Assembly: GCA_937981585.1 (NCBI GenBank)
Contig: CALJOA010000055.1
Span: 1 to 46,699, forward strand
DNA length: 46,699 nucleotides
Origin: an uncultured Pirellulaceae bacterium
GTDB taxonomy: Bacteria > Planctomycetota > Planctomycetia > Pirellulales > Pirellulaceae
Reading direction: 5' to 3'
Shown in pieces: positions 26,599 through 32,285 of this stretch. The notes under the pieces were generated by a model. It made no database searches. It saw nothing but the letters and a program-made list of their open reading frames with translations, and was not told the origin of the DNA. Each line of letters starts with the position of its first letter. Position 1 is the first letter of the stretch. The position numbers and the translations under genes are program-made.

Positions 26599-27198
26599 CT
26601 ACAGCGGCTGGCGACCCGACATTGCGTCAGCCAGAATTTCCTTGTTGGTGTATTCGAGGATGCTACCAGTCGTGATGCCTCGCGCCAATCGAGTCAGCCG
26701 AACATCATAGTCGGCCAGCAAGTTAGAAATATGAAGTGCGGTCCCGTCGCCCTCCACCGTAGGATTGGTCGCCATAATGACTTCGTTGAATTCGCCTTCA
26801 ACGACACGACCAACGAGCTGGTCAATTGTCAGCTGATCAGGACCGACGTTCTCCAGCGGCGCGATTCGCCCAAGCAAGACATGATACAGTCCCTTGAACG
26901 TCCCCGACTGCTCAAGCGCCATCAGATCACGGGGCTGTTGTACGACACAAAGTGTTTTCTGATCACGAACGGGATCACGACAAACGTTGCACATTTCGCT
27001 TTCGGCCAGATTGAAACAAATGTCACAGTACCTGACGTTCTCGCGAACAGTACGAATTGAATCCGAAAGCGCGAACGCTTCCGACTCGGGGACTCGCAAA
27101 ATGTGATACGCCAGCCGTTCGGCTGATTTGCGCCCAATACCAGGCAGCCGCGAAAGCTGCTCGATCATGTGCGTTACTGAATCCGAAAGTTCTGCCAT
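26599..27198 (-). CDS. recR: Recombination protein RecR
   Basis: A 199-residue RecR protein, which with RecO (and RecF) loads RecA at gaps. It has the helix-hairpin-helix LSRLPGIGRKSAERLAYHIL, the four-cysteine zinc finger CDIC...CNVC, and a Toprim domain with YHVLLGRIAPLENVGPDQL and TNPTVEGDGTALHI. The Toprim position that is usually VVE reads VVQ here (LCVVQQPRDLMALE), a change of the first acidic residue. It sits 19 bp after ybaB, in the classic dnaX-ybaB-recR order. Confidence 0.96.
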   Translation of the reverse strand: MAELSDSVTHMIEQLSRLPGIGRKSAERLAYHILRVPESEAFALSDSIRTVRENVRYCDICFNLAESEMCNVCRDPVRDQKTLCVVQQPRDLMALEQSGTFKGLYHVLLGRIAPLENVGPDQLTIDQLVGRVVEGEFNEVIMATNPTVEGDGTALHISNLLADYDVRLTRLARGITTGSILEYTNKEILADAMSGRQPL

Positions 27199-27217: not shown

Positions 27218-27601
27218 TCACTCGCTGACATCGGGTGCGGTGCCAGAGTCATCGCCCATGATCTGCTTGAGCATGTTTCCCATGTCTCCCGGAATCGGCA
27301 GATCCCCGGTTACCGACTGCATCGCATCAACGTGAAGCTGTTTGGCTTTAGCCAATGCATCATTGATTGCTGCGGGAAGCAAGTCAGCCACCATTTCCAT
27401 ATCGTTCTTTTCCGCCAACACTGGATCAATTTTCACGTCGATCACCTGGCCTGTTCCGTTGGCAGTGACCGAAACCATACCACCGCCCGCAGATCCGGAC
27501 ACTTGCCGCGTCTTTAGCTGCTCCATCGCTTCCTGCATCTTGGGGCCCATGGTCCGGGCCTGGCTCATCAGAGCGGCAATATTTCCAAGTCCTTTTAACA
27601 T
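27218..27601 (-). CDS. YbaB/EbfC family nucleoid-associated protein
   Basis: A 127-residue YbaB/EbfC protein that binds DNA as a dimer. The N-terminal helix MLKGLGNIAALMSQARTMGP, the strand region GGGMVSVTANGTGQVIDVKI and a C-terminal helix (LLPAAINDALAKAKQLHVDA) follow the family pattern; the last ~25 residues are a flexible tail. I chose the ATG at 27601, preceded by GGAGAT, over the in-frame ATG four codons upstream. It lies between dnaX and recR, as in many bacteria. Confidence 0.92.
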   Translation of the reverse strand: MLKGLGNIAALMSQARTMGPKMQEAMEQLKTRQVSGSAGGGMVSVTANGTGQVIDVKIDPVLAEKNDMEMVADLLPAAINDALAKAKQLHVDAMQSVTGDLPIPGDMGNMLKQIMGDDSGTAPDVSE

Positions 27602-27685
27602 CGTAATCTCCAATCAATTTTTGCAACCAACATCAATCGCATCCGAAACGGGGAGCTTGACGTTGTAGACACAAATTCTATCGGT

Positions 27686-29725
27686 TTAGACTTTTTTTGT
27701 CCGTACCGGTTCCTCGTAGCCAGTGATCTGAGCATCAAAAAGTGATATCGCTTTCTTAACAAAGTCCTGGTCGTGAAGCTTTCGAATCTGCTGCTGTCGA
27801 GTCATCTTGGGAGCCAGTTTTTGCTGGTTCATGGAATTCTTGGAAGCCCGGAAATCTATTCGGATTTGCTTTCCTGCCAGCGAGTGGAGCGCCGTTTCAA
27901 ACTTCTGTCTCTTGTCAGGCCGCGAGCACATGTCACTGTTGAACTTCTGATTCAAGGTCACGACCAATTGGTCAGGCTCCGTCAACTCGAGGCTTTCATA
28001 GTCCGAGGCATAGCCACCTGTGATCGGAGTCATTTGCGCGATGACTTCTTTCCAAACTGTCTCAATGTTATCAGAGTTAACCGCTGAAGCTTCGCTGGCC
28101 GCTGAGGGCTCCTCAGACCTCGGCGGAACGGTTGGCTCTGGTTCCAATTTCGGTCCGCTGGACGATTCAGGTTCACTGACCTGATTCTTTCGAGCTACGG
28201 GCTGGGGAGTTGGAGGATCTGGAGACAATTCGCCAGACGAATCTGAAACGGATTTAGTCGCGACGGTCGCGGCAACACCTGCACCCGCTGCAACGGTTCC
28301 GACAGCCGTGGCAATCAAAGCAGCCTCCCCGTTGAGCTCGGAATCGGGCTGCCCAGACGCCAGCGCGTTCGGCAGGCTATCGACTGGTTTACTAAGATTT
28401 TCCGGCTCTTGCTTGACGGGCGCCGCTGGTTTGTCGGTTGAAGCAATTGGCGATGAGGAAGCGACCGGACTAGCTATTTCGTTTTTTTTTGACGGAGGTT
28501 CGACTTGTCGCATCTTCACGCGCGGCCTACCTGAAGGCGTTGGCCTGGGCTTTGACGATCCACCTTCAGATTTTGCCAAGGCACCAATCAAATCAGAAAT
28601 CGAATCAAGCGATTCCAAATTACAAACCCGAATCGCGGCGGCCTCCAACAAGGTCCTTGCGTGGAGACTCGACTGCATTCGCACCACGGCAGCATCAATC
28701 AATTGCACGATCGAGAGAATCGTTTCCAAGCCGAGACTGTCTGCCAAGCTACTCAAATTCTCGATGTCGCTGGCGTTGCAATTGAGCAGCGTATCCTCGC
28801 CGCAACCGACCCGCACAGCCATCATGTCGCGGAAATAACCAAGTAGCTGGCTGGCCATTTGCCCGGCATCGACGCCTTGGAGAATACCGGCGTGAATCAG
28901 ATTCAATGTTTGGGCCGAATCATTGTTGGCCATCGCGGTGGCAATCTCAGCGATCCGCCCCATGTCCGCCGTGCCCAGCAGCTGGTGGACTTCGTCGACT
29001 GTGATCTCTTTTCCGCAAAACGAAAACAACTGTTCCAGCAAAGACTGACTGTCACGCATCGAACCGTTTGCGCGACGAGCCAACAACGCCAACGATTGCT
29101 CGTCGGCTTCGACTCCTTCTTCCTTGGCGATCTCACGCAGCCGGTTGGCAATCTCGCTGGTCTGAACCGGTGAAAAATCGAAACGCTGACAACGTGAAAG
29201 GACCGTGATCGGAATCTTCTGAGGATCCGTCGTGCAGAAAATAAACTTCACATGCAGCGGCGGCTCTTCAAGCGTCTTTAGCAGCGCATTGAAGGCCTGC
29301 GTGGTGAGCATGTGGACTTCATCGATGATATAGATCTTGTACTTCGACCTACCAGGACGAACAGCAGCATTGGACCGTAGCTGTCTGATCTCATCGATAC
29401 CGCGATTGGAAGCACCGTCAATCTCGAGTACGTCGACGTCTTCGCCGGCCGATACCGATTGGCAGATGTCGCACTGGTTACAGGGCGTCATCGTCGGGCC
29501 TTGCTCGCAGTTCAAGCACTTGGCAAAAATCCGCGCCGAAGAGGTCTTACCGACTCCGCGAGCACCCGTGAACAAGTACGCATGCCCAACGCGATTCTTC
29601 TCGATGGCATTGGAAAGCGCCGTTGCAATATGGCTTTGCCCTACCAGGTCGTTGAACGATTGCGGACGGTACCGCAACGCCACCACTTGATACTGGGTCT
29701 CTGGCTGAGTCTCTTTCGAATTCAT
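27686..29725 (-). CDS. dnaX: DNA polymerase III subunits tau/gamma, with a probable slippage site
   Basis: A 679-residue clamp-loader subunit. The ATPase has Walker A GARGVGKTSSARIFAKC, a zinc module with four cysteines (C-x9-C-x2-C-x2-C starting NCEQG), Walker B YIIDEVHMLTTQAFNALLKT and the sensor SRCQRFDF. Clamp-loader domain III ends near residue 385. A long Pro/Ser/Glu linker (about 390-570) precedes a C-terminal domain with IDFRASKNS. At codons 412-415 the coding strand has nine adenines (28490-28482); shift in either direction meets a stop within a few codons, giving products of 416 or 418 residues, like gamma. The linker also has an unusual hydrophobic Ala/Val/Gly stretch near residue 480. 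Confidence 0.96.
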   Translation of the reverse strand: MNSKETQPETQYQVVALRYRPQSFNDLVGQSHIATALSNAIEKNRVGHAYLFTGARGVGKTSSARIFAKCLNCEQGPTMTPCNQCDICQSVSAGEDVDVLEIDGASNRGIDEIRQLRSNAAVRPGRSKYKIYIIDEVHMLTTQAFNALLKTLEEPPLHVKFIFCTTDPQKIPITVLSRCQRFDFSPVQTSEIANRLREIAKEEGVEADEQSLALLARRANGSMRDSQSLLEQLFSFCGKEITVDEVHQLLGTADMGRIAEIATAMANNDSAQTLNLIHAGILQGVDAGQMASQLLGYFRDMMAVRVGCGEDTLLNCNASDIENLSSLADSLGLETILSIVQLIDAAVVRMQSSLHARTLLEAAAIRVCNLESLDSISDLIGALAKSEGGSSKPRPTPSGRPRVKMRQVEPPSKKNEIASPVASSSPIASTDKPAAPVKQEPENLSKPVDSLPNALASGQPDSELNGEAALIATAVGTVAAGAGVAATVATKSVSDSSGELSPDPPTPQPVARKNQVSEPESSSGPKLEPEPTVPPRSEEPSAASEASAVNSDNIETVWKEVIAQMTPITGGYASDYESLELTEPDQLVVTLNQKFNSDMCSRPDKRQKFETALHSLAGKQIRIDFRASKNSMNQQKLAPKMTRQQQIRKLHDQDFVKKAISLFDAQITGYEEPVRTKKV
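28482..28490 (-). promoter_or_regulatory. A9 slippery run in dnaX (candidate frameshift/slippage site)
   Basis: Nine consecutive adenines on the coding strand cover codons TCA AAA AAA AAC (Ser412-Asn415). Reading with one more A gives S-K-K-K-R-N-S-stop; with one less A gives S-K-K-T-K-stop. Thermus dnaX uses an A9 run for transcriptional slippage to make gamma, and E. coli uses A-AAA-AAG for ribosomal frameshifting. Confidence 0.65.
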
Positions 29726-30011: not shown

Positions 30012-32285
30012 TTAGTTCACACTCGTTAGATCAACTCTCGCCCCCTCGGCGAAAAGAACGTACTGGATGTTCTTGTAGTGGACTTCGAAGGTTGAATTGT
30101 CATCCTCGATTACGATCCGCCCCGGCTCTACCGTAGCAGCGCTCTGTTGGAAGCAAGCCAGATCGATGAACTCATAACCATCATTGCCGTCGATCCGGAT
30201 CACATCGCCTTCATCGACCAAAAACGTATCGTCTGACTTTCGCTCGGGCTCTACCTCTTCTACCCCGGAATTAAAAATCTCAGGTTCATCGAATGTCTCA
30301 TCGGAGAACGCGGGAACGCCGAAATCCGGAACCGGATCAGGAATGTCGCTACACTTTGCCAGAGCCGCAGCGATTTCAGCGTCAGCATCAAACTCTGGAA
30401 CGGTCGGCATGGCATCTTTAATCGGCTCCGACTGCTCAGGCTCCTGAACATCTGTTTGCGTGGAAGCTTCGGCCGCCACAGAGGCGAGAGCTTCTTCTAA
30501 TGCGACTTGGTCAGAGCGCATGTTCGGGACGTCCGATGCAGTCGGTTCGGGGGCTACTCCAGGGGCCGCGGTTGCCTCAGCTGAATTGACTGGCAAGGAG
30601 TGCAATTCTGGAGACACCGTAGACTCGTCGACAACTGAACCGACGGTGACAGGTTCTGAGCTGTTGGAAACGATAGAGTTGGAGGTCACGAAATCGGAGC
30701 TCCCGGTTGCTGTAACCACTGATGAAAGCGGCTTGCTACCCTCGGGAGTCGGCGTGATCGAGATCTGTTTAGCCGGTTTGGTTTTGGCTGGGCCCGATGA
30801 GTCGGAAACAGGTTGGCGAGTTGGTCCACTTTCCGTATCAGCGGGTTGGCTGGAAGCTGGTTGACTCGACAGTGAATTGGCAACTTCGGCGGTTTGGCTT
30901 GGAGCAACTTGGTCGACTTCGGATTGGGGTGCCAGTACTCGTTCCCGTTCCCCTACTGCTTGGCTCAAGCTGGCTGCCCCAACTGCCGCTCCGCCCAGAA
31001 TCGCTGAACTGGCCAAGATTGACGAGGCCGTAACAGCCGAGGAAGAGGCTGATGCCGCTTCCGAGGCGGCTGTTGACTGGGCCGAACCAAGTCGCATGTC
31101 CGGTTTGGCGGCTGCCAATTGCTGCAACACATCGGCACTCAATGGACTGTGAATCTTCTCGTCGGATTCGGGTGGGGTTTCGCGGGATGAAACAGTGGAG
31201 GTCTCATCAACTTTGCCGTTAGCCGGCTCACTGGAAGCAGACAACATCGATTCGTCGACCTCGGAGACTTCATCAGTGACTCCTTCATTTTTGAACGCGT
31301 TGGGAATCGGCTGAATCTTTTCCTCAGCCATTTCGCTGAAGTCACGCACGTCAAACTCAGCTTCTCCAGAAACCGGATCGACTAATGCTGAGACAGCTGC
31401 ACTGGATTCTGCGGGAGCCTGGTTAGGCGCAATTTCTTCCTGTTTCTCTTGAGCTTCTTGAGCGAACCATGAAACAGGAACCTCTGCTTCTTCACTTTCG
31501 ACTTGCGTTCCCTTGAGCAGCCCGGCCGCCAACGACGGATCGCTCAGTGGTCGCTGCTCTTCCTTGATTTGAGCGTCCTGCGGTGAATCTTTTTTCGAGT
31601 CGACTACCGGCGCATTGGAGAGTTTGAATGGAGCGACATTCTTGGTTGGGACGGCTTGCCCGTGAGATTCAGGAGATTCAGACGCGGTGTCTTTTGCCTG
31701 ACTCGACTTTTCCGGTTCGGAGGTCGCAGTGGGTTCTGATTCGGGTGTGGGTTCCGGCTCAGGGACGTAGCCAGGGATGGTGGCCAGAATCTCATCGATC
31801 GTTCTGGCTTTTTGGGTTACACCTTCGCTTGAAGAACTTTGATCTCCAATCGAATCCAAGCCACTTTGCGGTGGTTTTTGGGTAGACGCCTGCCCTGATG
31901 CCGTTGCCTCTTTAGTTTCTGTGATCGCCAAGTTTTTAGTCTCTATAGGTTTGACTGTTTTGTTGTAGGCCGCGGACTCACTCGTGTTGACGTAGGGATC
32001 GGCGGCGGCGAAATCACCAGGTCTTAGGTCTGATTCGTCAGCGAAAGAAACATAGGTGATTTCATCTTGGTCTTGGTCACTTAGGGAAGCGATCAGTTCC
32101 TCTGCTTTGGCCCGATCCAGTTTGGCTTGGTTCAAGACTTGATCATGCTCGGTTGAAGAGGAAGGGGAAGAAGGCGTGGAAGGCACCGAAGCTGTTGCCT
32201 GAGCACTTGGGGAGGGAGAAACAATTCCGCTTGTTGATAGCGGAAATGGGAAACTTGCCTCTTGATTGTTCGAAATTTGACTCAT
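30012..32285 (-). CDS. Large acidic low-complexity protein, function unknown
   Basis: A 757-residue protein made mostly of Ser, Pro, Ala, Glu and Thr, highly acidic and probably disordered. Two features stand out: a hydrophobic Ala/Ser/Gly/Val stretch (about residues 412-445, including ILASSAILGGAAVGAASLSQ) that could cross or touch a membrane, and a compact C-terminal segment of about 70 residues (DEGDVIRIDGNDGYEFIDLA, then IVIEDDNSTFEVHYKNIQYV) that looks like a small beta domain. I do not recognise the family. It lies upstream of dnaX on the same strand, 286 bp away, with a REP palindrome between, so co-transcription is doubtful. The similar linker composition of DnaX is noted as a curiosity. 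Confidence 0.7.
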   Translation of the reverse strand: MSQISNNQEASFPFPLSTSGIVSPSPSAQATASVPSTPSSPSSSTEHDQVLNQAKLDRAKAEELIASLSDQDQDEITYVSFADESDLRPGDFAAADPYVNTSESAAYNKTVKPIETKNLAITETKEATASGQASTQKPPQSGLDSIGDQSSSSEGVTQKARTIDEILATIPGYVPEPEPTPESEPTATSEPEKSSQAKDTASESPESHGQAVPTKNVAPFKLSNAPVVDSKKDSPQDAQIKEEQRPLSDPSLAAGLLKGTQVESEEAEVPVSWFAQEAQEKQEEIAPNQAPAESSAAVSALVDPVSGEAEFDVRDFSEMAEEKIQPIPNAFKNEGVTDEVSEVDESMLSASSEPANGKVDETSTVSSRETPPESDEKIHSPLSADVLQQLAAAKPDMRLGSAQSTAASEAASASSSAVTASSILASSAILGGAAVGAASLSQAVGERERVLAPQSEVDQVAPSQTAEVANSLSSQPASSQPADTESGPTRQPVSDSSGPAKTKPAKQISITPTPEGSKPLSSVVTATGSSDFVTSNSIVSNSSEPVTVGSVVDESTVSPELHSLPVNSAEATAAPGVAPEPTASDVPNMRSDQVALEEALASVAAEASTQTDVQEPEQSEPIKDAMPTVPEFDADAEIAAALAKCSDIPDPVPDFGVPAFSDETFDEPEIFNSGVEEVEPERKSDDTFLVDEGDVIRIDGNDGYEFIDLACFQQSAATVEPGRIVIEDDNSTFEVHYKNIQYVLFAEGARVDLTSVN

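Follow-up and report, generated by a model that had tools for sequence, protein, structure and literature searches.

Transcriptional slippage in the dnaX gene of Thermus thermophilus was reportedly described by Larsen et al. in 2000. The same gene is treated as a slippage case in excerpts of three later papers (PMC1088944; PMC5009743; PMC6260861), two of which report polymerase slippage from runs of nine residues upward (PMC1088944; PMC6260861). According to a section of the second of these, E. coli RNA polymerase slips in both directions on at least nine A's or T's, the Thermus dnaX run included (PMC6260861). The dnaX frameshift of E. coli itself uses a hairpin, as stated in part of PMC3711429, and for two-ORF dnaX genes with poly-A the same excerpts give a proposal of transcriptional realignment, with ten A's in 9 of 17 genes (Antonov et al., 2013; PMC3711429). 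The usefulness of the short gamma form has long been debated, mostly on the basis of E. coli (PMC5009743, in part).

In the 46,699-nt stretch of DNA from an uncultured Pirellulaceae bacterium that was analyzed here (the window), the gene order on the minus strand is dnaX, ybaB/ebfC, recR and rpoN (Table 1). The predicted product of the first gene was identified as DnaX by its match to TIGR02397 (dnaX_nterm; 451 bits, cut-off 250). A T9 on the plus strand at 28482-28490 reads as an A9 in the sense direction of the minus-strand ORF at 27686-29725, where it occupies nt 1236-1244 of the reading frame in phase 2 (TCA AAA AAA AAC GAA ATA GCT AG) and is placed 61% of the way through the gene. Reading of each frame predicted products of 416 residues with one A fewer, 418 with one A more, and 417 with two A's more or fewer; three extra A's restored the frame and gave 680 residues. 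The zero frame was open through the run to residue 679, and a two-ORF layout, in which the zero frame stops at the run, was not found in this gene. These readings bear out an earlier note on this DNA, which had placed nine A's at codons 412-415 of 679, with stops in both shifted frames (416 and 418 residues) and a zero frame continuing to full-length tau. The note had also put the run past the ATPase and domain III at the start of the linker, which agrees with the Pfam boundaries and the conservation profile: residue 377 is the last one covered by the ATPase, lid and domain III matches and the run starts at 412, and when 143 class proteins were aligned (the 146 class genes described below minus L015, L022, and L264) conservation fell from 0.48 (residues 361-390) to 0.19 (391-420) and 0.02 (451-480), then stood at 0.29-0.41 past residue 541. 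Because conservation drops across residues 361-480, the run is assigned to the beginning of the variable linker. Pfam gave no domain match within the C-terminal part (residues 561-679). The minus strand also carries, directly upstream of dnaX, a frame of 757 codons (30012-32285) with a high content of Ser, Pro, Ala and Glu.

Table 1. Features of the dnaX region, in window coordinates.
Feature	Position	Strand	Basis or remark
A9 slippery run	28482..28490	-	codons 412-415 of dnaX; sequence, position, A9/A10 in 119/146 class genes
TAG met with one A fewer (or two more)	28474..28476	-	predicted product of 416-417 residues
TAG met with one A more (or two fewer)	28470..28472	-	predicted product of 417-418 residues
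dnaX, zero frame = long form (tau), 679 codons	27686..29725	-	ORF, Pfam, TIGR02397
Clamp-loader ATPase, lid, domain III (residues 30-377), common to both forms	28595..29638	-	PF13177, PF22608, PF12169
Variable linker (~residues 391-560), mostly removed from short form	28046..28555	-	conservation profile
Moderately conserved C-terminal part (residues 561-679), long form only	27689..28045	-	conservation 0.29-0.41
ybaB/ebfC, downstream of dnaX, same strand	27218..27613	-	TIGR00103, 71.6 bits, cut-off 49.45
recR, downstream of dnaX, same strand	26599..27198	-	TIGR00615, 227.4 bits, cut-off 162.55

We propose, with a probability of roughly 0.8, that the A9 of the window is a programmed transcription-slippage site of the T. 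thermophilus type, from which both tau and a gamma-like product would be made. RNA polymerase would slip on the nine A's and generate a pool of dnaX mRNAs with mixed run lengths. Messages with 9 (or 12) A's would be translated into full-length tau, and those of other lengths would lead the ribosome to one of the two stops within a few codons, yielding a gamma-like protein of 416-418 residues that would consist of the ATPase core and domain III and lack most of the linker and the C-terminal part. Slippage at this site, its yield, and the existence and use of the short protein are what we infer from the sequence.

Relatives were searched with the conserved part of DnaX (residues 1-375) as the query. 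Strong dnaX matches were obtained in the source genome and most of its 59 relatives, in 123 genomes of a phylum sample of 128, and in 96 of a class sample of 98; genomes without a strong match were G002 and G058 in the 60-genome set and G238 and G249 in the 98-genome class set. The class genes were drawn from the 60 genomes (the source genome included) and the 98 class genomes, partly overlapping, together with the phylum sample, and cover part of the class only. In total, 178 genes were read, comprising the window gene, 26 from the same genus, 21 from the family, 26 from the order, 73 from the class and 31 from the rest of the phylum. One same-genus gene (L023), whose contig ends short of the site, was left out of the counts, giving a class set of 146. 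The 31 genes from the rest of the phylum were taken from 111 matching genomes as the 18 best-scoring and 13 from further down the score list, so this sample is tilted toward nearer relatives. Run length was defined as the longest A-run within the 110 codons following domain III, and the second run was scored in genes with two (n = 6).

The longest linker A-run was nine in 80 and ten in 39 of the 146 class genes, a total of 119 carriers, although kinship among the genes means that they cannot be counted as separate events. In the remaining 27 genes the longest run had 2-5 (24 genes), 7 (two) or 8 (one) A's, and a longest run of 6 or of more than 10 A's occurred in none of the 146. An A9 or A10 was carried by the window gene (1/1), 25/25 same-genus genes, 17/21 in the family, 19/26 in the order and 57/73 elsewhere in the class, with at least one carrier in 23 of the 26 families sampled. 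Loss of the run in close relatives had been named in the earlier note as an outcome that would refute its reading, and the 25 readable same-genus genes all retain the run. Outside the class, nine or ten A's were present in 5 of the 31 genes. The longest T-run in class linkers did not exceed 6, nor did the longest A-run in domains I-III exceed 7, and in four carriers the locus G+C is 0.71-0.74. When synonymous codons were resampled for the same linker proteins, 11.1 genes with at least nine A's were expected, as against the 119 observed. The start of the run ranged from 393 to 444 in window numbering among the 119 genes, and its phase was 2 in 71, 1 in 39 and 0 in nine of them. Because both phase and position vary, it is a run with its stops that is conserved rather than a fixed site; together with the excess over resampled codons, this means that the nucleotide run and its stops are what selection maintains.

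Genus g34, which belongs to the window's own family, had no run in any of its four sampled genomes (L076, L186, L187, and L188), and inspection of the runless class genes by eye showed no common substitute slippery sequence. Given these 27 genes, the making of two forms by this route would not be indispensable. Tandem runs (A9-TTG-A9 or A9-TTG-A10) were seen in six genes of family f21 (L083, L085, L086, L216, L219, and L234). The nearest named DnaX loci were those of Candidatus Anammoximicrobium and Aporhodopirellula, with 63% and 62% identity, respectively, followed by Gemmata and Schlesneria with 52-53%, a level also seen in other class members.

In the 119 class genes the first stop past the run lay a median of 3 codons away, whether one A was removed or added, compared with 24 and 23 codons, respectively, at other positions of the same linkers. 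Both stops fell within 10 codons in 101 of the 119 genes versus 7.7% of other linker positions, and each of the remaining 18 had exactly one shifted frame without a stop in that distance. Two controls, Lys codons elsewhere past domain III (n = 1194) and A5-A8 runs in the same genes (n = 215), had both stops close in 8.6% and 10.7% of cases, respectively. Linker positions with both stops close made up 4.1% in runless genes and 13.0% in run genes, the latter figure counting the site itself. At the level of families, both stops were close in one or more genes of 21 of the 23 families with the run. Since close pairing at the run is far above the controls and is rarer in runless genes, the two stops seem to be maintained because of the run. 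The alignment check suggested in the earlier note thus came out as foreseen, with the run in most class genes, both stops mostly kept and the flanks drifting, and this class-wide conservation supports its idea that two DnaX forms may be produced by slippage.

The source genome is a draft of 3.5 Mb in 158 contigs, 80% complete. It contains 24 A9 windows, equivalent to 19 distinct runs of at least nine A's on either strand, and among these 19 only the dnaX run has sense A's placed centrally (at 10-90% of the length) in a frame that spans at least 300 codons from stop to stop. Four other sense-A runs lie near the ends of such frames (codons 26/528, 36/537, 501/520, and 7/509), and one sense T9 was found at codon 98 of 407. 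In the window alone, A7 had 13 matches compared with 21 expected; 90 of 100 shuffles reached 13, so this shortage is weak.

Among 80 named loci gathered by protein similarity, 15 had nine or ten A's at 385-433, nine of them labelled as planctomycetes of kinds near the window and six labelled Ignavibacteria, Verrucomicrobia, Bacteroidetes, Opitutaceae, Phycisphaerae, and Phycisphaerales. The cultured carriers Gemmata sp. IIL30 (L112) and Aporhodopirellula aestuarii (L106) have an A9 and an A10, respectively. A sixteenth locus (L166) had ten A's far downstream, at 532, and the other Verrucomicrobia- or Ignavibacteria-labelled loci among the 80 were without a run. The order around the Opitutaceae genome, which we take from the title of locus L163 to belong to the Verrucomicrobiota, gave a dnaX match in 31 of 35 genomes, and 30 loci (L334-L363) were read. 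At least nine A's were present in 25 of the 30, at 372-394, with ten A's in 19 loci, 11 in one and 13 in one; the ceiling of ten A's is therefore valid for the window's class only. The long frame, which encodes the putative tau tail, was the zero frame in 11 of these 25 genes, was reached with one A more in another 11 and with one A fewer in three. Polymerase slippage allows, or even predicts, such indifference to frame, so the mixed frames of this order fit a frame-blind polymerase mechanism. That the zero frame is the long one in the window's class may be due to weaker slippage on nine A's, which would oblige the unslipped message to encode tau. With the long frame in the zero frame in so few of the run-bearing genes, many dnaX genes of the Opitutaceae order may be annotated as truncated.

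In a single FastTree of domains I-III, with the remaining phylum members as outgroup, run presence required 19 changes, compared with at least 39 in 200 label shuffles. The 147 class rows formed one clade, for which a root with the run implied 17 events and a root without it 19; with 146 of those rows the numbers were 17 and 18. All 17 events with the run at the root are losses, and the four g34 genomes of the window's family are among the lines affected. The class ancestor thus probably had the run, with about 17 later losses, and the runless lines would either do without gamma or make it in another way. We give even odds to a broader history in which slippage was present in the class ancestor and was kept by selection while the site moved through the linker and changed phase, in which it became frame-blind in the Verrucomicrobiota order, and in which the gamma/tau mixture is itself a selected trait and not a by-product.

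A -1 ribosomal shift usually prefers A_AAA_AAG and uses stimulators, and the short form could be made by ribosomal frameshifting or sliding on AAA AAA, with no slippage by the polymerase. The short product would be identical, tandem AAA or AAA-AAN codons are present in every A9 phase, and an in-frame A_AAA_AAG occurs in 22 of the 119 class genes; the window, however, reads A_AAA_AAA_AAC, with AAC where the heptamer has AAG. Moreover, a Shine-Dalgarno-like motif (5-6 bases, sought 4-20 bases upstream of the run) was found at none of the 119 sites, the window included, versus 3.9% of control positions, and the same test was positive for E. coli dnaX (AGGGAG). Folding of a downstream hairpin (z of +1.6 in the window; mean z of +0.24 over the 119 sites) was left uncounted because the known E. 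coli site was itself unremarkable (z of -0.37), making the test blind. A -1 shift alone would select one stop, yet both are equally close. Sliding, which according to part of PMC4363877 may run forward and backward and for which truncated product was seen with only three Lys codons, might explain the double stop; but in the E. coli cell-free system of that excerpt it was robust at A11 and gave little product at A9/A10 (PMC4363877), and the class runs end at ten. A minimum of nine and a maximum of ten A's in the class fit a polymerase, for which slippage is reported from nine A's up. A ribosomal origin of the short form is accordingly judged unlikely, and an E. coli-type -1 frameshift as the main reading is rejected for the missing AAG, the missing Shine-Dalgarno-like motif and the retention of the second stop. 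The earlier note had left polymerase and ribosome open; this comparison favors polymerase slippage.

There are two further explanations. The run might be incidental, reflecting two Lys codons in a disordered linker and a common AAA codon, as Lys codons outside the run comprise 1143 AAA and 1292 AAG (~47% AAA) in the 119 genes. This is very improbable in view of the more than tenfold excess over resampled genes, the bimodal run lengths, the closeness of both stops, and a source genome otherwise without such runs in the middle of long sense frames; chance and codon preference are rejected on the strength of the synonymous resampling and the stop controls. Alternatively, the run could be a contingency locus at the DNA level, with replication slippage toggling the long form within a population, as the one same-genus gene with its long form out of frame (L022) might suggest. 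We find this scarcely credible, since dnaX is presumably essential and the zero frame continues past the site in 118 of the 119 class genes despite the presence of both nine and ten A's (L264 being readable only to its contig end). The exception, L022 (G008), has an A8 (2693-2700) and an A10 (2705-2714) within 2693-2714, with a zero-frame stop just past them; read with one A more, it continues for 283 further codons, and the tail of this stretch matches a relative with 59% across 199 positions. L022 could represent a genuinely reversed layout or a mistake in the assembly.

A review suggests, in the part available, that a second Lys tRNA may accompany polymerase slippage (PMC5009743). G025, a same-genus genome in a single contig, has a tRNA-Lys(UUU) at L289 and both UUU and CUU copies in the L319 array. 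The latter (G025:C1:2656100-2658500) holds 15 tRNA genes in 2.4 kb, including the sole tRNA-Lys(CUU) among the scanned tRNA loci of G025, and could be part of a mobile element.

That most of the class has retained a run of nine or ten A's, followed by stops in the two shifted frames, suggests that two-form production is under selection there. It also suggests that an entire group can rely as a rule on polymerase slippage, which the papers examined describe for few dnaX genes. The runless lines (g34 and others) offer natural comparisons for the role of the short DnaX, and the run-bearing genes would serve as natural reporters of RNA-polymerase slippage. Differences in A-run length among dnaX assemblies are not necessarily errors or signs of pseudogenes.

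A search of a library of PMC papers found no report of dnaX slippage in planctomycetes, and in the part of PMC3711429 covered by a term search, Planctomycetes are mentioned only in a table. The kind of system is already known from Thermus; it is its range across the class for which we found no report. With E. coli dnaX the window gene shares the predicted derivation of gamma and tau from one gene and a site past domain III, but the E. coli site has A_AAA_AAG and an upstream AGGGAG, whereas both the AAG codon and a Shine-Dalgarno-like motif are missing at the window's run. In the two-ORF genes of Antonov et al., the long subunit requires recoding, whereas the zero frame of the window gene encodes tau; a similar reversed layout is seen among relatives in L022 of the class and in 14 of the 25 run-bearing genes of the Opitutaceae order. 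The likeness to T. thermophilus is closest, with one ORF for tau, a sense A9, near stops in both other frames and a short product without the C-terminal part. At least nine sense A's past domain III, and two near stops beside an open zero frame, are both present in the window gene, which likely belongs to the Thermus-type slippage kind. The two differ in that the Thermus run lies at seven-eighths of the gene (PMC1088944, in part), further along than in the window, and in that slippage has been demonstrated there and is proposed here from nucleotide sequence. As the two bacteria belong to different phyla, the planctomycete site would be either convergent with that of Thermus or very old.
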